Of a stretch of DNA of 64,000 nt, positions 51,489 to 64,000 are shown piece by piece. This DNA is from Gemmatimonadota bacterium. GTDB lineage: Bacteria; Gemmatimonadota; Gemmatimonadetes; Gemmatimonadales; Gemmatimonadaceae. How positions within the stretch are numbered: position 1 is the first letter of the stretch; each line of letters opens with the position of its first letter. The notes beneath the pieces were generated by a model. The model worked only from the letters and a program-made list of their open reading frames with translations. It was not told where the DNA came from and searched no databases. A program made the translations under genes and the position numbers. The DNA is taken from contig JAHFCU010000003.1 of the NCBI GenBank assembly GCA_023249305.1, forward strand, positions 1-64,000, read 5' to 3'.

Positions 51489-51623
51489 TGCAAGAGGAGC
51501 GCGTTGTTCGTCGGGGGGGGATGGATCGTCCGGCCCCTCAACCTCTGCGGGGGGACTAACATCGCGAGCGGCGTTGTTTCGTCGTTCACGAAACGACAAT
51601 TATTGACTGACCTTGGAGCGTTC

Positions 51624-52325
51624 GTGTTTGAGTTGCTGCAGCATCCACCCCGAAGTCCGGAACGCGTGCCGCTCGGCGCGGGCGTCAGCCTAGCCGTCCA
51701 CACGGCCTTCGTGCTGTCGCTGGTCTCGGGGGCGCAGCAGGTACTGGAGCCGTCGCGTTCGACGCAGGAGACGGTCATCTCGACCGCCATCAAGTACTTG
51801 CTGCCGCCGAATCGCCCCGCACCGGAGCCGCAGGCCCAGTCGGTGCGGTGGGGCGAGCAGCGAGTGCGTACCCCGCCACAACCAGTCCTGTCGGTCACCT
51901 CGGTGGAGCGATTGCCGTTGCTTGGCGAGATGTCGCTGCCGAAGGACGAGAAGTCCGCGACGCTGCCCCTCGCGGTCGAGGCGGTCGCGCAGAACGCATT
52001 CACGCTCCTGGATGTGGACACCGCCGCGGCGCGGGATCCAGAGAGCGCCGTTCCGATCTACCCTCGGATCCTCGAGTTGCGTGGGATCGAGGGGTCGGCG
52101 CTTGTGCGCTTCGTCGTGGACACCACCGGGCGGGCGGAGGCGGAGTCGTTTCGCATCGTCGAGACCTCACATCGCCTGTTCGCTCAGGCGGTGCGAGACG
52201 CGCTACCGCGGATGAAGTTCCGTCCCGCGACGATGGGCGACAGGAAAGTACGCCAACTCGTCGAGATTCCGTTTGGATTTCGGCTCGTCACACGCGGTAT
52301 GGTCGAGACCAGGCGAAGGCCTTAG
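51624..52325 (+). CDS. TonB-like energy-transducer-family protein
   Basis: A 233-residue protein with one N-terminal membrane helix (about 17-38), a Pro-rich periplasmic linker (PPNRPAPEPQAQ) and a TonB C-terminal domain (about 140-230: YPRILELRGIEGSALVRFVVDTTGRAE, then ALPRMKFRPATMGDRKVRQLVEIPFGF). It would transmit proton-motive force or act as a structural TonB relative. GTG 51624 is chosen because of the ribosome binding site GGAG 6 bases upstream; the frame is open from 51504 but without similarity. No ExbB/ExbD genes are in the window. Confidence 0.8.
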   Translation: MFELLQHPPRSPERVPLGAGVSLAVHTAFVLSLVSGAQQVLEPSRSTQETVISTAIKYLLPPNRPAPEPQAQSVRWGEQRVRTPPQPVLSVTSVERLPLLGEMSLPKDEKSATLPLAVEAVAQNAFTLLDVDTAAARDPESAVPIYPRILELRGIEGSALVRFVVDTTGRAEAESFRIVETSHRLFAQAVRDALPRMKFRPATMGDRKVRQLVEIPFGFRLVTRGMVETRRRP

Positions 52326-52365: not shown

Positions 52366-53589
52366 CTACTCGTAGCGGAGCGCGACGATGGGATCCATGA
52401 TTGCTGCGCGACGCGCGGGATAAACGCCGAAGATCACGCCGACCGCAGCGGAGAATCCAAAGGCGAGCGCGACCGCGGTGGATCCGACTTCCGTAGTCCA
52501 TCCCATGACCTTTGTGAAGGCCGTGGCGCCGCCGGTGCCGACGAGAATGCCGATCGCGCCGCCGACGAGGCAGAGCACGACGGCCTCCACGAGAAACTGG
52601 AACATGATGTTCAGCCGCGTCGCGCCGAGCGCCTTGCGAATGCCGATCTCGCGAGTGCGCTCCGTGACGGAGACGAGCATGATGTTCATGATGCCGATGC
52701 CGCCGACGATCAGCGACACGGTCGCAATGCCCGCGAGCAAGAGCGAGAAGACCGCGGTCGTCTCGCCGAGCGTGTTGAGGAAGTCAGCCTGCGAGCGCGT
52801 GTTGAAGTCGTCGTCCTTGCCGGTGCGCAGGTGATGCTCGCGGCGCAAGATCTTCTGAATCTCCGCCATCGTCTCGGGGATGTCGTCTTCAGACGGCGAC
52901 AGCACGCTGATAGAGCGCACGCGGTTCTGCCCGAGCACGCGGAATCGCGCTGTCGTGATCGGGATCAGGACCTGGTCATCCGGGTTGTTGAATGGCGAGG
53001 CCTGGCCCTTTGACTTGTACACGCCAACCACCGTGAACTGGATGCCGCGTATGCGCACGTTCTCACCGATGATCGCTTCGGCCGTCTGCAGGCCAAGGTT
53101 CTCAATCACCGTCGGACCGACGACGGCCAAACGCTGCCGCGAGTTATCCTCGGCGGTCGTAAAGAACCGTCCAGCCGCCATCTCGTACTTTCGCACCTGA
53201 GGGAAGTTCGAGGTCACGCCGACGATCTGCGTGTTGGTGTTCTTGTTCAGATACTGGACCTGCAGATTGCCCGACATCTCGGGCTGCACGGCGAGGATAT
53301 TCTCGCCGCGATCTTCGAGCGCTTTCGCATCCTCGAGCGTCAGGCGGGCGCTGCCGAACCCCGTGCGCACGCCGCCCTGGCCCATGGCCTGGCCCGGACT
53401 CACCGTAAGCAACGTCGTACCGAGGGCCGCAATGCGGTCATTGACAGCCTTCTGCGCGCCCCGGCCGAGCGCGACCACGGCGATCACCGCGGCGACACCG
53501 ATCACGATGCCGAGCATCGTGAGCAGCGAGCGCAGCTTGTTCGCACGCAGTGCGCCCAGCGCGACCATGATGGTTTCGCCGAAGAGCAT
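52366..53589 (-). CDS. MacB-type ABC transporter permease (no ATPase domain)
   Basis: A 407-residue permease with the FtsX/MacB layout: TM1 (about 18-43, RSLLTMLGIVIGVAAVIAVV), a large periplasmic MacB core domain (about 45-270) and three C-terminal helices (LLLAGIATVSLIVGGIGIMNIML, FLVEAVVLCLVGGAIGILVG and ALAFGFSAAVGVIFGVYPA). The ERTREIGIRKALGATRLNI coupling segment is conserved. Unlike full MacB, the N-terminal nucleotide-binding domain is missing, and no ATPase gene is adjacent. It is the last gene of the operon with the MacA-like adaptor and TolC-like factor, so the ATPase must be encoded elsewhere. Confidence 0.9.
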   Translation of the reverse strand: MLFGETIMVALGALRANKLRSLLTMLGIVIGVAAVIAVVALGRGAQKAVNDRIAALGTTLLTVSPGQAMGQGGVRTGFGSARLTLEDAKALEDRGENILAVQPEMSGNLQVQYLNKNTNTQIVGVTSNFPQVRKYEMAAGRFFTTAEDNSRQRLAVVGPTVIENLGLQTAEAIIGENVRIRGIQFTVVGVYKSKGQASPFNNPDDQVLIPITTARFRVLGQNRVRSISVLSPSEDDIPETMAEIQKILRREHHLRTGKDDDFNTRSQADFLNTLGETTAVFSLLLAGIATVSLIVGGIGIMNIMLVSVTERTREIGIRKALGATRLNIMFQFLVEAVVLCLVGGAIGILVGTGGATAFTKVMGWTTEVGSTAVALAFGFSAAVGVIFGVYPARRAAIMDPIVALRYE

Positions 53590-53592
53590 CGC

Positions 53593-55464
53593 TTAGCCCC
53601 GCGGACGAGCCGTCGCGCCGCCGCTCTGCTGACCGCCGCCCGGCTGACCGCCGCCACCTGGGCCGCCGCCCGGCGCACGTCCGCCACCCGGGCCACCCGA
53701 GGCGCCGCCGAGCGGGCTGCCGCCGCCCATCATTTGGCGGGCACGATCATTGGCCGCCTGACGCTGCGCTTGCATCGCCGCCGCGGAGAGGAGCGCGACG
53801 CGCTCCCCTTCCTTGAGTCCATCGAGTACTTCGGTGTAGTCGTAGTTCGCCACACCGAGGCGAACGACGCGAGGCTCCCACGCGGAGTCAGCCTTGAGCA
53901 CGAATACCAAGCCTGAGCGACTGCGGTTGCGCAAGCCCGGCGCCTGCGGCACTTCGACGGCGCGACCAGGCTGGTCGCCGCGGCTGCTCTGGCCACTGGC
54001 TTGCGCTCCGCCTGCGCGGCCACCGGTGCGTTCACCCGAGCGACCGCCGGCCGTGCCACCCCCCGCGCCACCCCCCGCTCCACGCATACCACCGCCCATA
54101 CCGCCGCCATTGCCGCCTTCGCGGCGGCGGCACCCGCCCGCGATGCGCGAGTCAACACCGAGCTTTGTGTACAGCTCCTGCATCTGCGTGAACATCGCGC
54201 GCCGATCGGCGTCCGGATTGCGCAGCTGCTCGCGCATGGCATCGAGCTGCTTGGCCACCGCCGGCTGCTTCTTGAGCGCCTCGGTCACCTTCTGGCAATC
54301 GGCATCGGTGACTTCGACTTGCTGGAAACCGCCTCCCCCTTGGCGATCAGCGCTCTGCGGGAGAAGGTCCACTTCACCGTTGCTGGTTTGCGGGCGGCCG
54401 CTCTGACCCCCCTGGCCGCCGCGAGTGCCACCCTGGCCGCCGCGGTTGCCGCCCTGACCACCGCCATTGAATCCGCCGAAGCCGCCGCCCATGCTCGACC
54501 GAAGCTGCGCGCGCACGCTGTCGGGATTGAGGTTGAGGAGCGGCGCGATCGTTTGGACTTCACGCACGTTGCGAATGGCGTCGTTCGGAATTGCGAGCAC
54601 GCTCGTGCGGCGATCCACGAGCACGGACGCCTCACCGTTCATGCCCGGCTTGAGCAGCCCGTCTTCATTGCTGAGTGAAATAAGCACGGGGAACATCGTC
54701 ACGTTCTGCTGGACGACAGCCTGCGGCTCGACCTTCTCGACCTTGCCGTGGAACGGGCGGTCGGGGAAGGCATCCACCGTCACCGTGGCTTCCTGTCCCT
54801 TCACGATCTGTCCGATATCGGTCTCGTTGACGAGCGCCCGCGCGCGGACGAGCGACAGATCCGCCATCTTGAGGATGGTGGAGCCGCCGCCGACGGACGA
54901 TGTGCCAGCCTGAATGACCTGACCGAGCGAGACCGTCTTCTCGATGACCGTTCCCAGCACGGGGGCACGCACCGTGGCATCCTCGAGACGCTGCTGTGCG
55001 AGGTCAAGCGCCGTCCTGGCGCGAACGAACGACGCCTGCGAATTGGCGTAGTCAAGGTTTGCCGTTTCATTCTCGGTGGCGGTAATGATGCGCTGCTTGA
55101 ACAACTCGTCCGAGCGCTTCTTCTGCGCCGTGGACGTGGTCAGCTTTGCCTGCGCCGCGTCGAAGTCGGCCTTCGACTGCTCCGCCGCATTGGTGAGGTC
55201 GCGCGTGTCGATCTGGACGATGAGATCACCGGGCTTGACGTTCGAGCCGACTTCGACGGTCATCTTCGTGATCTGACCCGACGCCGTCTTGGATTTCACC
55301 TCAACAACCGTGATCGGCTCGATGATTGCGGTGGCGGTGGCGTCCACGACGACGTCGCGGCGCGTGACGGGGGCGGTCTGGATCGCGATCGGTTTTTCGG
55401 ACTTCTTGCTGCAGGCGACAAGAGTCGACAGCGCGGCGAGGGCAAAGAGGAATCGGCGATTCAC
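53593..55464 (-). CDS. MacA/HlyD-type periplasmic adaptor lipoprotein with Gly-rich insertions
   Basis: A 623-residue membrane-fusion protein (usual length about 380) with lipobox LSTLVAC (C18). It contains the biotinyl-lipoyl halves (SKTASGQITKMTVEVGSNVKPGD and ATVRAPVLGTVIEKTVSLGQ) around an alpha-hairpin (about 85-150), then the beta-barrel (TVDAFPDRPFHGKVEKV). Three low-complexity Gly-rich stretches lie near residues 325-355, 445-475 and 575-623, with a helical insert between the first two. GTG 55464 has GGAG upstream and gives the lipoprotein signal. It links the MacB-like permease to the TolC-like channel. Confidence 0.87.
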   Translation of the reverse strand: MNRRFLFALAALSTLVACSKKSEKPIAIQTAPVTRRDVVVDATATAIIEPITVVEVKSKTASGQITKMTVEVGSNVKPGDLIVQIDTRDLTNAAEQSKADFDAAQAKLTTSTAQKKRSDELFKQRIITATENETANLDYANSQASFVRARTALDLAQQRLEDATVRAPVLGTVIEKTVSLGQVIQAGTSSVGGGSTILKMADLSLVRARALVNETDIGQIVKGQEATVTVDAFPDRPFHGKVEKVEPQAVVQQNVTMFPVLISLSNEDGLLKPGMNGEASVLVDRRTSVLAIPNDAIRNVREVQTIAPLLNLNPDSVRAQLRSSMGGGFGGFNGGGQGGNRGGQGGTRGGQGGQSGRPQTSNGEVDLLPQSADRQGGGGFQQVEVTDADCQKVTEALKKQPAVAKQLDAMREQLRNPDADRRAMFTQMQELYTKLGVDSRIAGGCRRREGGNGGGMGGGMRGAGGGAGGGTAGGRSGERTGGRAGGAQASGQSSRGDQPGRAVEVPQAPGLRNRSRSGLVFVLKADSAWEPRVVRLGVANYDYTEVLDGLKEGERVALLSAAAMQAQRQAANDRARQMMGGGSPLGGASGGPGGGRAPGGGPGGGGQPGGGQQSGGATARPRG

Positions 55465-55499
55465 GAGGTGCTCCGAATGGGACGTCGGTCGGTGTCTGG

Positions 55500-56804
55500 T
55501 CACTTGAGGTCGCGGCCGATGAGGGCCTCAACCTGGGCCTTGGCGATGCGGGCGTCGTAGCGCGCCTGAATCAGCGCGGCACGAGCCTGGTCGAGCGTCG
55601 TCTGCGAGGTCAGCAGGTCGAGCAGGACGGAGGCGCCGAGGGCGTACCGCTGCTGCTGCACGCGCAGGTCCTCCTCGGCCGCGTCGACGGTGGCCAGCTG
55701 GATGGCGACACGCTGCTCGGCGGTGCGGAAGGCACCGAAGTACTGCACCAGCGACTGCTGCTGCGCGAGCTTCGCGTCGCGCAGCGCGGCCATGGCGTTG
55801 TCCTCCGCCACAGTCGACCGCATGAGATTCTCTTCCCGCGTGAAGTTGTTGAACAGCGTCCAGCTCAACGTGAGGCGGAAACTCGTCTGCTTGGGGATGC
55901 GGCCGCTGCCGAAGTCGAACGTTTCGGCGGTGTTGTTGCCGCTCAAGCTGTACGACGAGGAGACGGTAGGCAGGTACGGGGTGCGCGAGGCCCTGCGGGC
56001 GGCCTGCGCCGACACGAGCGCAGCTTCTGCGGAGCGAACGGTCGGACCCTGCATGGCCAGCGCGTTGAGGGCTGCACTGTCGAGCACGATGCGACCCATC
56101 TCTGCGGTATCGGCCGGCGTGGCGGTGACCACGTCCGTGGAGCCGATCAATCGCGAGAGGGCGGCGTTCGCGACGCGCAAGTTGTTCTGCGCGGTGAGCA
56201 GTGCGAGCCGCGCGTTGCCGACCTGGATGGCGCTGCGCAGCGAATCACTCTTCGTGGCCGCGCCGGCGTGAACCTTCGCCGTCGACGACTTGAGCTGTTC
56301 GGCGGCCTGCTCGAGCTGCCGCCGGGCGGCGCTCTCGCTCTCGCGAGCGGCGAGCACGGCGAAGTACTGCTGCTTCACTTGTAGCGCCACGTTGTAGAGT
56401 TGGGACGTCTCGCTTGCATCGGCCGCGTCAACATTGGCCTGCGCCGACTTGAGGTTGTACCAGCGGCGGCCGCCGTCGAAGAGCTCGAGGTTGGTGGAAA
56501 GCCCACGCGAGTACGACCACGGGACGCCGCTGTACGGCACCAGCTTTCCCTGGAAGAACGTCTCGCCGCCTTGGCGTGAGCCGGAGCCGTTGGCGGAGAG
56601 CGAGGGCAGGTATTGACCATACGCCGAGCGCACGGCGGCACTGGTGGTGCGCAGCGCGTTGCGCGCCGTGACGGCCGCCGGGTTGTTGCGCTGCGCGAGG
56701 CGCACGGCCTCGTCCAGCGGAATGGGGCGTGCGCCATCGCCCGCCGGCTGCTGGGCGGCGAGGGCGAACGGCACGGCGATCAAGAACAAGGAAACACGCG
56801 TCAT
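55500..56804 (-). CDS. TolC-family outer-membrane efflux factor
   Basis: A 434-residue outer-membrane factor with signal peptide (MTRVSLFLIAVPFALAAQQ). Two similar halves each carry long helical hairpins and short beta strands, as in TolC: PLDEAVRLAQRNNPAAVTARN in the first half, TVRSAEAALVSAQAARRASRTPYLPTV in the second, ending with LLTSQTTLDQARAALIQARYDARIAKAQVEALIG. It forms the exit duct of the tripartite system with the adaptor and permease downstream. It starts 3 bases after the LTxxQ protein gene. Confidence 0.9.
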   Translation of the reverse strand: MTRVSLFLIAVPFALAAQQPAGDGARPIPLDEAVRLAQRNNPAAVTARNALRTTSAAVRSAYGQYLPSLSANGSGSRQGGETFFQGKLVPYSGVPWSYSRGLSTNLELFDGGRRWYNLKSAQANVDAADASETSQLYNVALQVKQQYFAVLAARESESAARRQLEQAAEQLKSSTAKVHAGAATKSDSLRSAIQVGNARLALLTAQNNLRVANAALSRLIGSTDVVTATPADTAEMGRIVLDSAALNALAMQGPTVRSAEAALVSAQAARRASRTPYLPTVSSSYSLSGNNTAETFDFGSGRIPKQTSFRLTLSWTLFNNFTREENLMRSTVAEDNAMAALRDAKLAQQQSLVQYFGAFRTAEQRVAIQLATVDAAEEDLRVQQQRYALGASVLLDLLTSQTTLDQARAALIQARYDARIAKAQVEALIGRDLK

Positions 56805-56807
56805 GTC

Positions 56808-57173
56808 CTATTTCTTCTCCTGCGCGCGGGCTTTCTGGTCCCGCTGCATCTGTTCATACACGCGCTGTTGGTTCGGCGTGAGGACCGCCGAGATCTTCTG
56901 CCGCGCGAAGGCGCGGATCGAGTCGAGCTGCGAACGAATGGGCACGACGACGACCGACTCCGCCCGGAACCGCGAATCGAGAATGCTATCCACGGCGGAC
57001 CGCTGATCCGTTGTGAGCTTCAGATCCTTGGCAAACCGGTCCCGCATGGCACGGCCGGACGTCCGCGTGGTGCTGTTGGCCAGCAGCAGCCGATCAACGG
57101 CGACACCGACCGCGGCGCCAGCCACTGCCGCCGCGAGGTAGAACGCCAAGGCCAGTTCTTTGGTTCGCGTCAT
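56808..57173 (-). CDS. Membrane-anchored LTxxQ (Spy/CpxP/CnrX-like) protein
   Basis: A 121-residue protein with one N-terminal helix (LALAFYLAAAVAGAAVGVAV) and a periplasmic helical hairpin with two LTxxQ motifs (KLTTDQRSAVDSIL and LTPNQQRVYEQM). This layout matches CnrX/CpxP-type periplasmic sensors of metal or envelope stress that act on an anti-sigma factor. It lies between an anti-sigma-like gene (30 bases upstream) and the TolC-like gene (3 bases downstream). No Cys or His metal ligands are evident, so the stimulus need not be a metal. Confidence 0.78.
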   Translation of the reverse strand: MTRTKELALAFYLAAAVAGAAVGVAVDRLLLANSTTRTSGRAMRDRFAKDLKLTTDQRSAVDSILDSRFRAESVVVVPIRSQLDSIRAFARQKISAVLTPNQQRVYEQMQRDQKARAQEKK

Positions 57174-57203
57174 GGAATGTTCAGGAGAGGGGAGCGCGGC
57201 GCG

Positions 57204-57584
57204 CTACCGCCCGTTGATGTAGTTGTAGGTGGTCTGCCGATCAGTTTGCCCTTCGCGAATGGCAATGGTCGGGCCACTGGCGGCTGGGCCGACAACCGAC
57301 TCATACGCCATCTCGCGCTGTTCGGCGCGCGAGCGCAGGAAGAGGGAACCGGCAACGATGAGGGCGAAGCCGGCAGCGATCAAGCCAAGGCGCACCCACT
57401 GCGTGGGCACGGCCCACCAGAAGTCGAGCGACTCGCCCGCGGCGATGCGGTCCATGATGCGCTGCTCCAGCGCGCTCCAGTATCCGGGCGCGTCGGGTGC
57501 GGCGTACATCTGCCGCAGGGCGGTCGTCAGTTCCGCATCACCCTCGTCGGACACAAGGTGCAACGGCGTGTGGTCATTGGTCAT
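57204..57584 (-). CDS. Single-TM anti-sigma-like protein
   Basis: A 126-residue protein with a cytosolic N-terminus (residues 1-60; TALRQMYAAPDAPGYWSALEQRIMDRI), one membrane helix (about 62-83, WVRLGLIAAGFALIVAGSLFL) and a short periplasmic tail. It overlaps the sigma factor stop by 4 bases (ATGA), the usual arrangement of an ECF sigma factor and its anti-sigma. It lacks the zinc-binding HxxxCxxC motif, so it belongs to a non-ZAS type. It should hold the sigma factor at the membrane until the LTxxQ partner reports a signal. Confidence 0.75.
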   Translation of the reverse strand: MTNDHTPLHLVSDEGDAELTTALRQMYAAPDAPGYWSALEQRIMDRIAAGESLDFWWAVPTQWVRLGLIAAGFALIVAGSLFLRSRAEQREMAYESVVGPAASGPTIAIREGQTDRQTTYNYINGR

Positions 57585-58192
57585 TGGGAACTCCGCAGCT
57601 GTTCAAGAAGCCGGCGCAGCGCAGACCGCGCATAGTGCAGGTCAGATCGTGCCGTCCCCTCAGGAATGCCAAGTAGCTTGCCGATCTCGGAATGCTTGAA
57701 TCCTTCCACATCGTGCAGCACGATCACCGCGCGCTGCCGCTCGGGCAGGCGCTCGAGTGCCGCCCGCAGACGCAGGCGCAATTCGTCAGATTCCGCGGGA
57801 TCGCGGAACGGTGAAGCGATGGTCTCGGGCAGATCGTCAGCATCGCGCACCTTCCGCCGGCGCGTGATGTCGAGCGACGCGTTGGCGACGATGCGATGCA
57901 GCCACGCGCCGAAGGCTTGGTCGGGTAGGAAGCGGTGCAGGGCGCGGTAGGCGTGGAGGAACGCATCCTGCACCGCGTCTTCCGCATCCTCGTGCGTCAT
58001 CACAATTGCGCGCGCCACCGCATAGGCCCGCCGCTGGTGGCGGCGCACCAATTCGGAGAACGCCTCGAGCTCACCGCGCTGGGCGGAAAGCACGAGCGCC
58101 TTCTCGTCGTCGGGGCGGTCAGGCGTCGTCACGCGTCGGCGGATGTAGCCGGACAGCGTCACGGACGCCGGACGCAGGGCAATGGTGTTCAT
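57581..58192 (-). CDS. ECF RNA polymerase sigma factor (efflux operon)
   Basis: A 203-residue sigma factor. Region 2 is at about 40-110 (ELVRRHQRRAYAVARAIVMT, DAEDAVQDAFLHAYRALHRF), region 4 at about 140-195 (LERLPERQRAVIVLHDVEGFKHSEIGKLLGIPEGTARSDLHYARSALR). ATG 58192 was chosen; a longer frame to 58252 adds only polar residues. It is the first gene of the operon that encodes anti-sigma, LTxxQ protein, TolC-like factor, adaptor and permease, and probably activates its own promoter. Confidence 0.9.
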   Translation of the reverse strand: MNTIALRPASVTLSGYIRRRVTTPDRPDDEKALVLSAQRGELEAFSELVRRHQRRAYAVARAIVMTHEDAEDAVQDAFLHAYRALHRFLPDQAFGAWLHRIVANASLDITRRRKVRDADDLPETIASPFRDPAESDELRLRLRAALERLPERQRAVIVLHDVEGFKHSEIGKLLGIPEGTARSDLHYARSALRRLLEQLRSSQ

Positions 58193-58262
58193 CGCGTCTC
58201 GTCTGGAGGGGCACCCCTTGAGACGCGCGACGGGCCGAGAACGTTGACGCAACAGGGCGCAC

Positions 58263-58844
58263 CTAAGCCCCCGCCAGTCCGAGGGGCACCGCGTTGGCCT
58301 TCAGCGCCTCGACCACGAAGGCAATGTGCACGTCGAGCGCAACGCCCAGTTCCGCGGCGCCGTGCAAGATGTCCTCGCGCGAAACACCCCGGGCGAAGGC
58401 CTTGTCCTTCATCTTCTTTCGCACGGACGAGGGCTCGAGATCGAGAATGCTCTTGCTGGGCCGCACGTACGTGGCTGCCGTGATGAGGCCGCACAACTCG
58501 TCCACGGCAAAGAGCGACTTGGCCATCGAGGACTCGCGCGTCGAGTGGGTGTAGGCGGCGTGCCCCATGATTGCGGCGCAAATCTCCTCGGAGACGCCAA
58601 GGCCGCGCAGGTGCCGCACGCCATGCGACGGATGTTCATCGGTGGCCGAGTGTGCGTCGTTGGGGAACCGCTCGTAGTCAAAGTCGTGAAGCAGGCCGGC
58701 GAGACCCCAGGTCTCCTCATCCGCACCGAACTTGCGCGCATACGCGCGCATCGCCGTCTCGACAGCGAGCATGTGCTTGCGGAGCGATTCGCTCTGCGTC
58801 CATTCGCAGACGAGAGTCCAGGCAGCCGTGCGATCAAGAGACAT
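58263..58844 (-). CDS. HD-domain phosphohydrolase-like protein
   Basis: A 193-residue cytosolic protein with an HD metal-binding fold: first His H24 (RKHMLAVETAM), H53-D54 in LLHDFDYERFP, later His in HPSHGVRHL and GHAAYTHSTR. The HDIG-like layout suggests a metal-dependent phosphohydrolase, often on nucleotides; the substrate is unknown. It stands between two similar ECF operons, 70 bases upstream of the sigma factor start of one and 110 bases after the stop of the other. Confidence 0.83.
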   Translation of the reverse strand: MSLDRTAAWTLVCEWTQSESLRKHMLAVETAMRAYARKFGADEETWGLAGLLHDFDYERFPNDAHSATDEHPSHGVRHLRGLGVSEEICAAIMGHAAYTHSTRESSMAKSLFAVDELCGLITAATYVRPSKSILDLEPSSVRKKMKDKAFARGVSREDILHGAAELGVALDVHIAFVVEALKANAVPLGLAGA

Positions 58845-58954
58845 TGAATGGGGCGGAAAGTAGACGAGAGAGAAAGGCGATCAGCGGATGGGCAATTTAC
58901 GAACGGTGACCGTCCGTGGTGTACCCAGAAGCAGCCCGCCGGCCGCCCTAGGGC

Positions 58955-61900
58955 CTACGGAATCCGACGGCCGCTCGCTCCGCCAGCAGCGCCGCCGGCG
59001 CCGCCGGTGCTTCCATCGGGCCGTCGTCCCCCCTGAGCGCCGCCCGGTCGCAGGGACGGATTCTTCACCGACTCGGGCACCTCCGCCCACTGGTCGGCCG
59101 TCAGCGTCTTTTGAATGGCTTGCGTAGCCTGCAGGTAGTTGTTGCGCGCTTCCTGCAGGATGGGCTGGAGCTTGGGGAAGAGCGTCTGCAAATCGCCGCC
59201 GCTCTTCTCCTGCTTCTTCATCTCCGCCTCAACGCGCTTCGTGATATCCTGAGTCTTCGCGTCCAGCGAATCGCCGATTGCCTTGATCGTCGCGATCTGC
59301 GCGGGGGTCAGCTTCAGGATGTCCTTCATGTCCATCAGCGGCGTGACCGGATTCGGCGCGAGGCGGCGCACGATGGCGCGGAAGTCCATCGCCGGCCGGT
59401 TGTTGTTGCCGCTGGCGTTCAACATGCCCTCGAGCAGTTGGCGCTGGCGGTCCACGCCGACCTGCAGACGCGCGGTCAGCGAGATCTGGAACGGATTGCG
59501 CAGGGCCGAACGCGCGAGCGCGTTACTGCCGAAGCGCTCGTTGACGGTGTATCGGAACCGATTCGCGACGGGATCGAAGCCGCGCACGTAGAGCAGCGTG
59601 TTGTCCACGAATGCGGGCTGGCCCCATCCACGGAGGTGGTCGGCGCCGTGCAGCAGCTGATCGAGACCGGCCAGCGGATTGTTGAGCCCCACCTGTAGTT
59701 GCAGGCGGCGGCCGATGGTAGCGCCCAGCTGCGGGCGGAAGTTGAGCTGCAGGTCGAGCGACGTGGTCCACGGGGCGCGGCAGCTATTGCGGCCGGCGAC
59801 GCTGTTGATTTGCGCGAGCAGGCAGCGGTGTGCCGCGCCAGGCGCCTCGGCGAGCAGGCGCTGCATGCCGTTCGACAGCGCAGTGTCGCCGGCCGACGTC
59901 GGGTCGAAGATGAACGCGCGATCGTTGCGCGCGCCGTCCCCGTTGATGTCACCGGCCACACGCGGTGTGTATGGCTGGCCGGACTGCACACGCAGCACGC
60001 CCGTGACGTCGAGCCATGGCCGCGCGAGCCACGTCACTGAACCATTGATGCCGTGCCGGCGCTCGAGGTCGCTCGTCCACGTGGGAAGCGCGTCGGGATC
60101 GCCGGCCGTGGTCGCCGAAGAGAAACCGCCGGCCGCGCTCCCGCCCGAGAACGACGACTGGTCGGTGGATCGCGTGGCCGTGTACGACAGGTTCCACACG
60201 AGCTGGCGCAGCGAGTTGCCGCTGACACTTGCCGTGATCTGCGTCGTGTGCGAGGCGAGTGGCGACGCCACGAGGAACACGTAGCCATACGCGGGGTCGA
60301 TGCGCGACGCCGTGAGCGTCGTCGCGCCAGTCGTCGGGATGATCGTTGACGCCGGCACGAACACCGGTCTGTTCCCCTCGCTCGAGAGCCGGAACTGCGG
60401 CACCTGCGACAGGTTGAGATCGGTCACGCCATAAAGGCTCGTTCCCATCGAGTACGTCGCGTCAATGCTCGCGTTGTATCGCTGAAGGAAGCGCTTGGAG
60501 AGGCCAAGGGATCCGCGAATCGAACGCGGCGTCGCAAAGTTCGATGCAAACGCCGTGACATTGGGACGCGTGCGGCTCAGTGGCACACTCGGACCGGAGC
60601 CGTCGGCGCACGTGGTCGGGATGGTCGAGAAGTCGTGCAGGTACGATGCCCAGTCGGGCGTCGGCACCGCGGCACCGACGCAGACGAGCTGCGTCTCGCC
60701 GCCGGGCAAACCCGTGGCGTCAATGGCCGACGAGAACAACTGCGTCGGCGCCCGCCCGCGGAATTCGCCAATGCCGCCACGAACAATCCACGGCTGCGGA
60801 ATCTGCGGCTGCTGTTGCTGCGGGTTCTGTCCGCCGAGCATACCGAGCAAGCCGCCCATGCCACCGGCACCGCCGCCGGGGCCGCCTGCGAACCCGCCGC
60901 CACCGAATCCACCGCCGCCACCGCCGCGACCCTCGCCACCGCGCGCTTCGCCACCGCGCGCTTCGCCACCGCCGCCGCCCTGAGCGCCCGGACGGTTCGC
61001 GCGACGTCCGGTGTCGGGCGGCAAGCCGAGGGTGAGCGTGAAGCCGAGGCGCGGACTCACGCGCACGTCCGATGGAATGCGATCGGTGCGCAAGCCGAAC
61101 TTCGTGCTAATGTCCGGATTATACGCTGGCTGGCCGTCAATGCCGCTTCCTTCACCGCGAATACCATAGGTGAGTTGGAACGCGCGATTGGGACGCCAGA
61201 TATCGCCGAAGTACACCGCCGCCGTCACTGCACCACCGGTGCGTTGCGCCGGCGCGAACGACCGCGTGAACTGGCTCGGGCGATTTGCGTCGAGGTCGGT
61301 GAGTGACTGGAACTGGAAGTTGCCCGACCGATTCGCGCCGGCCGTCGTGCGGAACCCGGAGCGGTTGATGAGTTCACCCAGCTTCCAACGATGCTTGCCG
61401 CCGCCGGAGAGCCAGGACGTTTCGTTGGTGACCTCAAGCGCGGTGGAGGCGTTGTCGTTGGGTAGTGCGCCGTTGCCTCCGAAGTCGAGGCCGGTGAGGC
61501 CCAACTGGCCCGTGGCGAGGTTGCTCGCGACATAGACGCGCGCTTCGGGGAGCCGGAGATACGGATTCGCGCCACGCGTGTCGAGCGAATACGAGCCCTT
61601 GAACTCGTTCAGGAACTGTCCCATCACCGACGACAGCGACGCAAGCCCGCCGACCGTGCTCCCCCTCTGCTCGCCGGCGTGCGTCGGCACACTCTGCGCC
61701 GAACTGCGGAAGCCGTCGAGCAGACTCCCCGCAATGTTGCCGCGGATGGACAGTGAATGCGCTTCCGTCAGCTGCTGGTCGAGGCGCACGATTCCGGTGA
61801 GGTTGTCCGTCGTCCGATCATCGGGAACGAGCGCGTTGCGCGCTGGCAGGCCGTAGCGCTGCAGCAAGCTCAGGAACCGCGCCGCCGAATCGGGCTGCAC

Positions 61901-62851
61901 ATTCAGCGCCTCGAGCGCCTGCGGGCCTGCTCCGAGCAGTGACTGCAGCGCATCGAGGCGACGACGCACCTGGAAACTCGCGAACCAGAACGTCTGGTCC
62001 TTGGCGATGGGGCCGCCCAACCCGCCGCTCACCTGGTGCTGCGTGTACGCGCCGCTGAACGTCGTGCCGCTGTTGTCGCCGGTGGCGAACTCGAGATCCG
62101 GGTCGCGCAGCGCATACGAGAGCGAACCCGACAGGTCGTTCGTGCCGCCGCGCGTTGTGGTCGCCACCTGGCCGCCCGTGAACTGGCCGCGCGCGATATC
62201 GTACGTGCTGGTGATCACGCGCGTGCTGCGCACGGCCTCGGCCGGCACCGAACCGCCGAATGAGAGACCGTCGAGCGTCACTAGGTTCTGGTCAGCGCGC
62301 TGTCCGGCTACTGAGAATCCGGCCGACGACGTGTCGGTGCCCGTGATGCCGACAACGCCGGCCGCGAGCGAGGCGATCGCGTTCGGGTCGGATGCGTCAA
62401 TCGGAAGGCGCAGCAGTTGCTCTCCTGAGAGGGCGCGCTCCGTACTACCCGGCGTCGGCTGATTCTCGTTCGGTCGCGGGGTCTGCCGCGAACTCACGAT
62501 CACCGCACTGAGGGTCGTCGGCGAAAGGCGGAAATCGGCGACGAGGCGGTCTTCGTCGGACAGCCTGTTCAGGCTCACCGAGGCCGGCTGCAACCCGATG
62601 GCGCGTGCGGTCACGCGATACTGGCCGCCGCCATCGGGGAAGAGCAGGGTGTACTGACCCTTGTCGTTCGTTGTTCGCACGCGCGTGGTGCCCGTCTCGA
62701 TGGACATCACTTCGATGCGCGCGTTGGCAACCGGACGATTCTCGGTGTTGCGCACCACGCCGGTGATGATGTCCGTGCTGCTGCCGACCTGCGCCTCGGC
62801 AAACCGGGGCGCGAGCAGCAGGACGAGGGCCAGAAAGAGCTTGGATCGCAT
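58955..62851 (-). CDS. TonB-dependent-receptor-like outer-membrane protein with C-terminal LTxxQ domain
   Basis: A 1298-residue protein with signal peptide (to about 21). A carboxypeptidase-regulatory-like beta domain (about 24-105, TGVVRNTENRPVANARIEV) is followed by a plug-like domain (about 140-230) and a large outer-membrane beta-barrel (about 240-1150). A Gly-rich low-complexity loop lies at about 613-690. Unusually, the barrel is not at the end: residues about 1170-1255 form a helical LTxxQ domain (ILKLTPAQIATIK and KTLTADQWAEVPE), then a Gly-rich tail. It starts 18 bases after the LTxxQ gene of the operon. Confidence 0.88.
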   Translation of the reverse strand: MRSKLFLALVLLLAPRFAEAQVGSSTDIITGVVRNTENRPVANARIEVMSIETGTTRVRTTNDKGQYTLLFPDGGGQYRVTARAIGLQPASVSLNRLSDEDRLVADFRLSPTTLSAVIVSSRQTPRPNENQPTPGSTERALSGEQLLRLPIDASDPNAIASLAAGVVGITGTDTSSAGFSVAGQRADQNLVTLDGLSFGGSVPAEAVRSTRVITSTYDIARGQFTGGQVATTTRGGTNDLSGSLSYALRDPDLEFATGDNSGTTFSGAYTQHQVSGGLGGPIAKDQTFWFASFQVRRRLDALQSLLGAGPQALEALNVQPDSAARFLSLLQRYGLPARNALVPDDRTTDNLTGIVRLDQQLTEAHSLSIRGNIAGSLLDGFRSSAQSVPTHAGEQRGSTVGGLASLSSVMGQFLNEFKGSYSLDTRGANPYLRLPEARVYVASNLATGQLGLTGLDFGGNGALPNDNASTALEVTNETSWLSGGGKHRWKLGELINRSGFRTTAGANRSGNFQFQSLTDLDANRPSQFTRSFAPAQRTGGAVTAAVYFGDIWRPNRAFQLTYGIRGEGSGIDGQPAYNPDISTKFGLRTDRIPSDVRVSPRLGFTLTLGLPPDTGRRANRPGAQGGGGGEARGGEARGGEGRGGGGGGFGGGGFAGGPGGGAGGMGGLLGMLGGQNPQQQQPQIPQPWIVRGGIGEFRGRAPTQLFSSAIDATGLPGGETQLVCVGAAVPTPDWASYLHDFSTIPTTCADGSGPSVPLSRTRPNVTAFASNFATPRSIRGSLGLSKRFLQRYNASIDATYSMGTSLYGVTDLNLSQVPQFRLSSEGNRPVFVPASTIIPTTGATTLTASRIDPAYGYVFLVASPLASHTTQITASVSGNSLRQLVWNLSYTATRSTDQSSFSGGSAAGGFSSATTAGDPDALPTWTSDLERRHGINGSVTWLARPWLDVTGVLRVQSGQPYTPRVAGDINGDGARNDRAFIFDPTSAGDTALSNGMQRLLAEAPGAAHRCLLAQINSVAGRNSCRAPWTTSLDLQLNFRPQLGATIGRRLQLQVGLNNPLAGLDQLLHGADHLRGWGQPAFVDNTLLYVRGFDPVANRFRYTVNERFGSNALARSALRNPFQISLTARLQVGVDRQRQLLEGMLNASGNNNRPAMDFRAIVRRLAPNPVTPLMDMKDILKLTPAQIATIKAIGDSLDAKTQDITKRVEAEMKKQEKSGGDLQTLFPKLQPILQEARNNYLQATQAIQKTLTADQWAEVPESVKNPSLRPGGAQGGRRPDGSTGGAGGAAGGASGRRIP

Positions 62852-62869
62852 GGGAGGCGGGTCCGTCGT

Positions 62870-63379
62870 TTACGGTCGTGGCATGGGGGGACGGCCCCAA
62901 TCGCCCGGCCCGCGCTGCGGCGCGCCGTTGGGGAAGCGCTTCCGGAACTCAGCCTCCCGCCGTGCGCGCGCGGAATCGAGCAGGGCGCGCTGAGTTGGCG
63001 TGAGGATGCTGTCCATGGAGCGCTTGGTCTGCGCCATCAGCGAGTCAATGGCAGGCTGCGTGGATTGGCGAATCGAACGGAAGCCGTGCATCTGTCGCTC
63101 GATGAGCGTGTCAATGCGCACGGCCTGCTCCTCCGTGAGCTTGAGGTCCGCGCCGAGCATCGCGCTCGGTCGGCGCGGTGCGGGGTGGCGCTCCCCACGC
63201 GCCGCCATGCGCGAAGGCCAGATGCGCGGCCGCAGGACGGTGCGCTCGAGCGTCACGCCGGCGACGACGCCAGCGATAGCGACGATGATCAGGACGAGAA
63301 CGGCCAGCAGTCGCGGTGCGCGCGACGGTGCGTCCGGCACCGTATCATCTGCCGCGTTGAGATTGATGTTGTCGGTCAT
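62870..63379 (-). CDS. Membrane-anchored LTxxQ (Spy/CnrX-like) protein, second operon
   Basis: A 169-residue protein with a cytosolic N-terminus (about 1-22), one membrane helix (LLAVLVLIIVAIAGVVAGVTL, about 24-45), and a periplasmic helical hairpin with LTEEQAVRIDTLI and ILTPTQRALLDSARARR. A Pro/Gly/Arg-rich tail ends the protein. The design matches the LTxxQ gene at 56808-57173, and it sits in the same place of a similar operon, just before the outer-membrane protein gene. Its ATG overlaps the anti-sigma-like stop by 4 bases. Confidence 0.8.
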   Translation of the reverse strand: MTDNINLNAADDTVPDAPSRAPRLLAVLVLIIVAIAGVVAGVTLERTVLRPRIWPSRMAARGERHPAPRRPSAMLGADLKLTEEQAVRIDTLIERQMHGFRSIRQSTQPAIDSLMAQTKRSMDSILTPTQRALLDSARARREAEFRKRFPNGAPQRGPGDWGRPPMPRP

Positions 63380-63768
63380 CGCTCCACCGCCATAGCAATG
63401 AGGAACTCCGTAGAATCCGGGCCGACGACCGCGTCGGTCACTAACCGGCGCGACCCGCCGGCCACGGCGCCCTGCAGGTCACTCGACGCGGCGGCCTGCG
63501 CCGCGACCTCGGCTTCACTGCGCACCGAGCGGTTGAGGATCACGGCCGCAATCAGCGCCGCGGCGATCCCGATCGGTACGGCGGCGCGACCATAGCGCGC
63601 CACCCATCCGTACCACGGCGTATCCACGCGCTGCATCCGGTGCCGCCGTGTGGCGATCACGATGCGCTCGCGGAGCTGCTCCTCGCGCAGCAGCGCGCCG
63701 AGGGCCGGATCGCGCGGCGGATCCTGAGCGAGGTAGTCGTCGGTCGGGTTGAACTGATCGTTGCTCAT
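63376..63768 (-). CDS. Single-TM anti-sigma-like protein, second operon
   Basis: A 130-residue protein: acidic cytosolic N-terminus (DDYLAQDPPRDPALGALLREEQLRERI), membrane helix (about 58-78, AAVPIGIAAALIAAVIL), and a short periplasmic part (about 79-130). It overlaps the sigma factor upstream and the LTxxQ gene downstream by 4 bases each (ATGA), which forces a fixed ratio of the three proteins. No zinc motif. A longer frame from 63891 would lie inside the sigma factor gene in another frame, so ATG 63768 is used. Confidence 0.74.
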   Translation of the reverse strand: MSNDQFNPTDDYLAQDPPRDPALGALLREEQLRERIVIATRRHRMQRVDTPWYGWVARYGRAAVPIGIAAALIAAVILNRSVRSEAEVAAQAAASSDLQGAVAGGSRRLVTDAVVGPDSTEFLIAMAVER

Positions 63769-64000
63769 GCGTTCCCCTCGTCCCGCAGCGGTGCCAGCGC
63801 TGTACGCAGACTCTTCTTGGCCTGGTGCAGGTGCCACCGCACGTTTTCGGGCGTGAGGCCGAGGTGTTCGGCAATCTCGACGCCCTTCCATCCTTCCACT
63901 TCGAACAGCATCACGATCTCGCGTTGCCGCGGCGTCAGCGCCGCGAGCGCGGCGTCGAACCGCTCCCGCACTTCCTGTCGGATCAGAACCTCATCCGGCG
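63765..64000 (-). CDS. ECF RNA polymerase sigma factor, second operon (5' end outside window)
   Basis: The visible 78 codons are the C-terminal part of a sigma factor with region 4: LTPRQREIVMLFEVEGWKGVEIAEHLGLTPENVRWHLHQAKKSLRTAL. The frame stays open to the window edge (PDEVLIRQEVRERF), so the gene begins beyond 64000 and region 2 is not seen. It is the first gene known of the operon with the anti-sigma-like, LTxxQ and outer-membrane protein genes. Confidence 0.88.
   Translation of the reverse strand, partial: PDEVLIRQEVRERFDAALAALTPRQREIVMLFEVEGWKGVEIAEHLGLTPENVRWHLHQAKKSLRTALAPLRDEGNA

Follow-up and report, generated by a model that had tools for sequence, protein, structure and literature searches.

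The window analyzed here (64,000 nucleotides, the whole stretch of DNA under study, from a 2.5-Mb, 78.6%-complete metagenome-assembled genome of the Gemmatimonadaceae) carries near its end two minus-strand operons that each combine an extracytoplasmic function (ECF) sigma factor, a presumed anti-sigma factor and a membrane-anchored LTxxQ protein with genes for the cell envelope. Operon 1 (sigma1-asg1-LTQ1-TolC-MacA-MacB permease, with an HD-domain gene upstream) encodes an efflux duct and operon 2 (sigma2-asg2-LTQ2-barrel) an outer membrane barrel. The two signalling modules probably belong to a single type that is widespread in the Gemmatimonadales, an envelope-responsive and autoregulated ECF circuit whose likely regulon consists of the efflux duct and a barrel that carries an LTxxQ domain at its own C-terminus. 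The order-wide ECF/LTxxQ circuit is real and the barrel link is its new part; a search of the open-access literature returned no description of an LTxxQ-tailed barrel, nor of LTXXQ joined with an ECF triplet or this regulon.

Both operons were compared with a panel of 99 genomes of relatives; the query genus is represented by the query and 10 other members (11 genomes). The genes, strand and order of the original prediction (sigma, anti-sigma, anchored LTxxQ protein and envelope cargo in two minus-strand operons) were all recovered, as were its 4-base ATGA overlaps between sigma and asg in both operons and between asg2 and LTQ2. The operons had been called adjacent and do lie side by side, but the HD-domain gene sits between them. 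The order in the query genus is sig2-asg2-LTQ2-barrel-HD-sig1-asg1-LTQ1-TolC-MacA-MacB, with both modules ~6 kb apart on a single contig wherever the assemblies permit. LTQ1 is kept in 9/10 and LTQ2 in 8/10 of the other genus members, and the conservation of both modules in the genus is far beyond chance. Across the family the order HD-sig1-asg1-LTQ1-TolC-MacA-MacB is kept and operon 1 is nearly universal in the Gemmatimonadaceae. Among loci with enough downstream DNA, LTQ is present in 68/68, asg1 in 66/68 and TolC is the next gene in 65/68, and the order is conserved in related genomes; the sigma/asg overlap of −4 recurs in 74/80 loci. Orthologues of LTQ1 were identified in 87/99 relatives and of LTQ2 in 57/99, the latter with weak similarity outside the query genus. 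Operon 2, barrel included, is confined to the query genus, and the sig2-asg2-LTQ2 triplet of other genera mostly lacks the barrel. A scan of named genomes with the sigma1 alignment led to Gemmatimonadota/Gemmatimonadaceae records, bar a few under other or unspecific names. Two contigs labelled Deltaproteobacteria (VGSZ01000382, L193) and Candidatus Kuenenia (CALQGY020000146, L225) bear the Gemmatimonadaceae operon and are probably mis-binned.

ECF promoters are expected to contain AAC in the −35 and CGT in the −10 element, and a sequence of this shape was identified between HD and sigma1 (TCAACGTT-N14-CGTC, corresponding to CAAC-N17-CGT). It is kept in every query-genus member that holds operon 1, where this sequence and the stretch flanking the start codon are almost all that is conserved upstream of sigma1. 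Overall, CAAC-N13-18-CGT[ACT] is found between HD and sigma1 in 55/73 loci (mean 2.6 and maximum 6 in dinucleotide-shuffled sequences) with a spacing of exactly 17 in 53 of the 55 matches; the same motif occurs upstream of HD in 1/72 and upstream of TolC in 2/71 loci. In families f2 and f3, all 12 examined triplet operons of the sigma1 type (L302-306, L309-311, L106-109) carry CAAC-N17-CGTA ahead of the predicted start of sigma or overlapping it, compared with 0/14 other ECF sigma loci examined in these families, three of which have a looser CGTC form. This position ahead of the operon's own sigma gene is that of an autoregulated ECF operon, with sigma1 as the factor that would recognize the promoter. 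A scan of the genus for TCAACGTT-N13-15-CGTC gave 16 matches in 10/11 genomes, with one match per genome ahead of sigma1 in these ten; the remaining matches are scattered, save one shared site ahead of a sortilin-like gene in two genomes. This gene (loci L251 and L254), which has TCAACGTT-N14-CGTC ~100 bp upstream and is distinct from the sortilin/VPS10-like gene divergent to sigma2, is a possible extra sigma1 target.

The same promoter type recurs in front of tailed barrels. CAAC-N17-CGTA was first noticed upstream of barrels in a set of 19 LTxxQ-tailed barrel genes, and 36 further upstream regions were then fetched (55 in total, searched within 180 bp of the start). The motif is present ahead of 18/55 tailed barrels (shuffled mean 0.125, maximum 1 in 200 shuffles), is enriched only at a spacing of 17, and is carried by 11 of the 34 scorable regions that were fetched after it had been noticed. 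In eight genomes it precedes 10/13 tailed barrels and 0/13 tail-less paralogues (one-sided Fisher ~5e-5), and since these genomes were mostly picked for motif-bearing barrels, a selection that counts against the proposed circuit, the contrast with the tail-less paralogues is the informative part. Within 3.4 Mb of loci, which are centred on these genes, the motif lies ahead of sigma1 38 times, of barrels 16 times and of other genes twice. Genome-wide, the total number of TCAAC-N17-CGTA matches equals that of the reversed control and only the sigma1 and tailed-barrel sites stand out by position, indicating that the regulon is probably small. From the occurrence of the motif ahead of sigma1 and of tailed barrels, the regulon likely comprises the operon of sigma1 itself and the barrel with the LTxxQ tail.

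The giant barrel was originally regarded as envelope cargo; it is present as described, but it is more than cargo, with a C-terminal LTxxQ domain of its own that had been missed. The match to PF07813 is weak (residues 1172-1256, E 0.0024, below the cut-off) with both motifs conserved, and the tail was matched in 64/99 relatives, mostly inside frames of 1200-1400 amino acids (aa). An AlphaFold2 (AF2) model of the tail based on eight sequences predicts a helical hairpin with moderate confidence. A barrel of this type adjoins a triplet in two further genera (G034 and G040, loci L152 and L148) in arrangements unlike that of the window, which suggests a repeated barrel-triplet association, and in genus G042 such a barrel lies ~4.5 kb from the HD-sigma1 block. 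Several relatives instead have an EmrAB-like efflux set upstream of HD; between such a set and the sigma block, relatives encode secreted LTxxQ-like proteins that resemble the tail of the barrel (L070:2410-3024, L168:8701-9117).

The membrane-anchored LTxxQ protein proposed for each operon was borne out for both LTQ1 and LTQ2. PF07813 LTXXQ is matched by 34/57 LTQ1 orthologues (best 6e-8), and the two LTxxQ motifs and the all-helical domain place the LTQ1 family in the LTxxQ/Spy-CpxP superfamily. Both motifs have an invariant Gln, and Arg68, Asp84 and Arg91 are almost invariant as well. An AF2 model of LTQ1 (mean pLDDT 83, pTM 0.49) predicts a transmembrane (TM) helix plus a short, a long and one further helix. 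Upstream of the LTxxQ genes, asg1 and asg2 encode short proteins without Cys and with one hydrophobic segment each, in agreement with the single-TM non-zinc anti-sigma factors originally proposed. The layout of asg1 is a cytosolic N-terminal part of ~60 aa, one TM segment (64-82) and a periplasmic tail of ~44 aa. Neither protein carries the Hx3Cx2C motif of zinc-binding anti-sigma factors or a recognizable class I anti-sigma domain; non-zinc domains of class I exist, and asg1 and asg2 may still belong to this wider class. A profile search of the PDB with the presumed anti-sigma gave chance matches only. Position, gene overlap, layout and the co-divergence of the cytosolic half with sigma (partial r 0.45) all suggest that asg is an anti-sigma factor that holds sigma. 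The periplasmic tail of asg tracks LTQ1 in its divergence (partial r 0.52) more closely than it tracks the cytosolic half of the same protein (0.28), from which it is inferred that the LTxxQ protein reads this tail.

An alternative explanation is that the modules are metal sensors of the CnrYXH type (Cupriavidus metallidurans pMOL28), with LTQ1 and LTQ2 binding Ni, Co or Zn, relieving a CnrY-like anti-sigma and inducing metal efflux through TolC-MacA-MacB. Both systems comprise an ECF sigma, a short single-TM anti-sigma and a TM-anchored helical periplasmic sensor, cluster these genes with an outer membrane factor, an adaptor and a pump as in cnrYXHCBA, and would relieve the anti-sigma through the sensor; in addition, Pfam Metal_resist is matched by 17/57 LTQ1 orthologues and the matches of the adaptor include CzcB-type adaptors in addition to MacA. 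The original prediction had likened the order to CnrH-CnrY-CnrX, and the composition agrees, but the known cnr order is Y-X-H-C-B-A as opposed to sigma-anti-sigma-LTxxQ here. The pump is a MacB_PCD/FtsX permease rather than a resistance-nodulation-division (RND) pump, and an LTxxQ-tailed barrel joins the regulon. Among solved structures the LTQ1 profile recovers Spy first (3oeo, 5e-4) and CpxP next but not CnrX, profile comparisons with CnrX and CnrY are non-significant, and an hhalign comparison of the asg1 alignment with CnrY covers 13 columns at a probability of 0.3%, the agreement being limited to the general layout. CnrX has conserved His/Glu/Met ligands and requires Met123 and the metal site for signalling (PMC7689651), whereas the 57 LTQ1 orthologues have no conserved His or Cys column and their commonest Met columns reach only 31-33/57. 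This agrees with the earlier remark that clear metal ligands are missing and that the stimulus may not be a metal. A metal stimulus is therefore unlikely for the LTQ1 family on sequence grounds, the label "heavy-metal sensor" that follows from Metal_resist is probably wrong here, and metal sensing was rejected as the main explanation and is improbable. The circuit works like CnrYXH in its parts and logic and lacks the tested defining features of CnrYXH. A different proposal sees the LTxxQ proteins and the tails as periplasmic chaperones of general function and of the Spy/CpxP kind, made as an output of the envelope stress response, with the anti-sigma sensing by other means such as regulated proteolysis. 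The chaperone Spy is the best sequence match, secreted LTxxQ proteins occur nearby too and the tail could serve as a chaperone for the barrel that carries it. Against this, LTQ1 and LTQ2 keep an N-terminal TM anchor and their slot after the anti-sigma in nearly every genome, and the co-divergence of the anti-sigma tail is stronger with LTQ than with the cytosolic half of the anti-sigma; this proposal is considered rather unlikely.

The similarity of the two operons could also result from a recent tandem duplication, and the original prediction described a duplicated module. The three-gene order is common to both, the modules lie within 6 kb, and sigma1 and sigma2 are mutual best paralogues in the genome at 41% (the next paralogue has 39%). 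In a tree of 49 sigmas, however, the orthologues of sigma1 (99/99) and sigma2 (99/92) form separate clades, and the sigma2 clade spans families f1 and f2. The clades separated before the order diversified and the modules are therefore not a local duplication. LTQ1 and LTQ2 are just 24% identical and the promoters differ: a putative sigma2 promoter (TAAC-N15-CGTG at −36, ~64357-64379, outside the window) is present in most genus members and was searched for and not found outside the query genus. In most genus members this promoter sits in an inverted repeat of the CGGGCGCGGC-TAACG-GCCGCGCCCG type (contig 64357-64391), possibly an operator. A recent duplication, rejected by the sigma tree, is thus highly improbable; the two modules are ancient paralogues that came to lie side by side in the query genus, where operon 2 is a genus-specific neighbor. 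Sigma1 consists of sigma2 and sigma4 domains without a sigma3 domain (Pfam r2 and r4_2), as defined for ECF factors, both proteins score above the cut-off of TIGR02937 (sigma70-ECF), and the group may already bear an ECF group number.

In the proposed circuit, the single-pass anti-sigma would use its cytosolic N-terminal part to tether the ECF sigma to the inner membrane, and the anchored Spy/CpxP-like protein would read the short periplasmic tail of the anti-sigma and sense an envelope condition that is probably not a metal. Once the brake is relieved, sigma1 would transcribe its own operon from CAAC-N17-CGT, producing the TolC-adaptor-permease duct, and throughout the order this sigma most likely activates barrels with a C-terminal periplasmic LTxxQ domain as well. 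In the query genus the barrel gene instead lies immediately ahead of the sigma1 block and is preceded by an autonomous second triplet (sigma2-asg2-LTQ2). Several observations weigh against this reading. The sigma1 promoter is absent from 18/73 sigma1 operons, mostly of the Gemmatimonas clade, 37/55 tailed barrels lack CAAC-N17-CGTA, and the query-genus barrels have no sigma1-type promoter and depend on operon 2 as its last gene. That sigma1 rather than another ECF factor reads the motif is an inference. The co-divergence that points to a contact between the LTxxQ protein and the anti-sigma is indirect, and co-divergence of sigma with LTQ is as high (0.51) as that of the asg tail. No family match was found for asg1 and asg2 in Pfam and NCBIfam, and no LTxxQ structure was recovered by Foldseek with the LTQ1 model against the PDB. 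With the tail model, several CnrX entries, NccX and ZraP were among the top 50 of 350,542 chains at non-significant E values of 2.7-5. The Gemmatimonas-like clade, which lacks the sigma1 promoter, has a gap of ~29 bp between HD and sigma1, so that its sigma1 may be transcribed together with HD; no convincing promoter was found upstream of HD in this clade.

Feedback of the barrel's LTxxQ tail on the circuit is considered probable, a hypothesis drawn by analogy with soluble CpxP in the Cpx response and with the STN-STN pairing of TonB-dependent transducers. In the Cpx/CpxP and Zra/ZraP systems an LTxxQ-family periplasmic protein is made by a regulon that the same protein may modulate, as is proposed here; these systems use two-component kinases instead of an ECF sigma, and CpxP is soluble whereas the LTxxQ domains described here are anchored or fused to a barrel. 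FecIRA-type systems (TonB-dependent transducers, FecR/FoxR) likewise combine an ECF sigma, a single-pass anti-sigma and an ECF-controlled barrel that bears an additional periplasmic domain. They have STN-like domains on both periplasmic partners, and the barrel touches the anti-sigma with its signalling domain (PMC11637429). The extra barrel domain found here is a C-terminal LTxxQ domain in place of an N-terminal STN domain, the sensor domain on the inner membrane side is a separate anchored protein, and Pfam scans of the system's proteins revealed neither STN nor FecR. Tentatively, the tailed barrel might act as an outer membrane transducer whose tail talks to the inner membrane LTxxQ/anti-sigma pair, by like-with-like contact or by competition for the anti-sigma tail, so that the assembly or ligand state of the barrel sets the sigma that drives the barrel and duct genes; this extension is doubtful.

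Features of the two operons in the window (positions of the whole stretch)
Feature	Position	Strand	Evidence and remarks
MacB-type permease, 407 aa (MacB_PCD + FtsX), without ATPase domain	52366..53589	-	Pfam
MacA/HlyD-type periplasmic adaptor, long Gly-rich insert	53593..55503	-	HlyD_D23 4e-24, RND_mfp 2.6e-53
TolC-like outer membrane efflux protein	55500..56804	-	OEP 5.6e-53
LTQ1, TM-anchored LTxxQ (Spy/CpxP-like) protein	56808..57173	-	profile match to Spy; PF07813 in orthologues
asg1, presumed anti-sigma	57204..57584	-	ATGA overlap with sigma1; orthologue alignment A3
sigma1, ECF sigma factor, 203 aa	57581..58192	-	Sigma70_r2 8e-17, Sigma70_r4_2 2.5e-17; ATG at 58192
Predicted sigma1 autoregulatory ECF promoter, between HD and sigma1	58222..58247	-	TCAACGTT-N14-CGTC (CAAC-N17-CGT)
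HD/HDIG-domain protein directly upstream of sigma1	58263..58844	-	HD 4e-8, HDIG
CarboxypepD_reg/Oar-like outer membrane barrel ending in LTxxQ domain	58955..62851	-	OMP_b-brl_4 1.4e-32, CarboxypepD_reg 1.7e-13
C-terminal LTxxQ tail of barrel, after last predicted beta strand	58955..59452	-	two LTxxQ motifs
LTQ2, TM-anchored LTxxQ protein	62870..63379	-	PF07813 2e-4, below curated cut-off; TM 24-42
asg2, presumed single-TM anti-sigma, 130 aa	63376..63768	-	ATGA overlaps on both sides
sigma2, ECF sigma factor	63765..64000 in window	-	C-terminal part only, cut by window end; completed from contig C34 (63765-64343, 192 aa, true start 64343)

The duct genes of operon 1 resemble MacAB-TolC in that they encode TolC, a MacA-like adaptor and the MacB periplasmic core and FtsX domains; unlike MacB, the permease has no fused N-terminal ATPase (no nucleotide-binding domain). 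An ABC ATPase gene is located within the operon, between TolC and MacA, only in families f2 and f3 and is gone from the operon in the query family. The closest ATPase copy in the query genome (G000:C39:12319-12996) was considered as an orphan partner for the operon 1 permease and rejected, as it belongs to a complete, separate adaptor-ATPase-permease set. The HD gene keeps its place upstream of sigma1 in almost every relative with a contig long enough to include it. Just past MacB lies a convergent gene with a TonB-like C-terminus (51504-52325) that is also found in many relatives, and a sortilin/VPS10-like gene is divergent to sigma2 (L003:1894-5142, contig 64693-67941).

To our knowledge, the route by which the state of the outer membrane is conveyed to ECF sigma factors has been worked out in only a few cases (RseA/DegS, FecR). 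The present analysis provides a defined ECF circuit that spans the order, together with its predicted promoter, a predicted regulon of small size and a barrel sharing the domain type of the sensor, and turns the possibility that a barrel reports through an LTxxQ domain into a directly testable question. If the transducer reading is true, it would amount to the logic of FecA realized with a domain of the chaperone type, located at the other end of the barrel.

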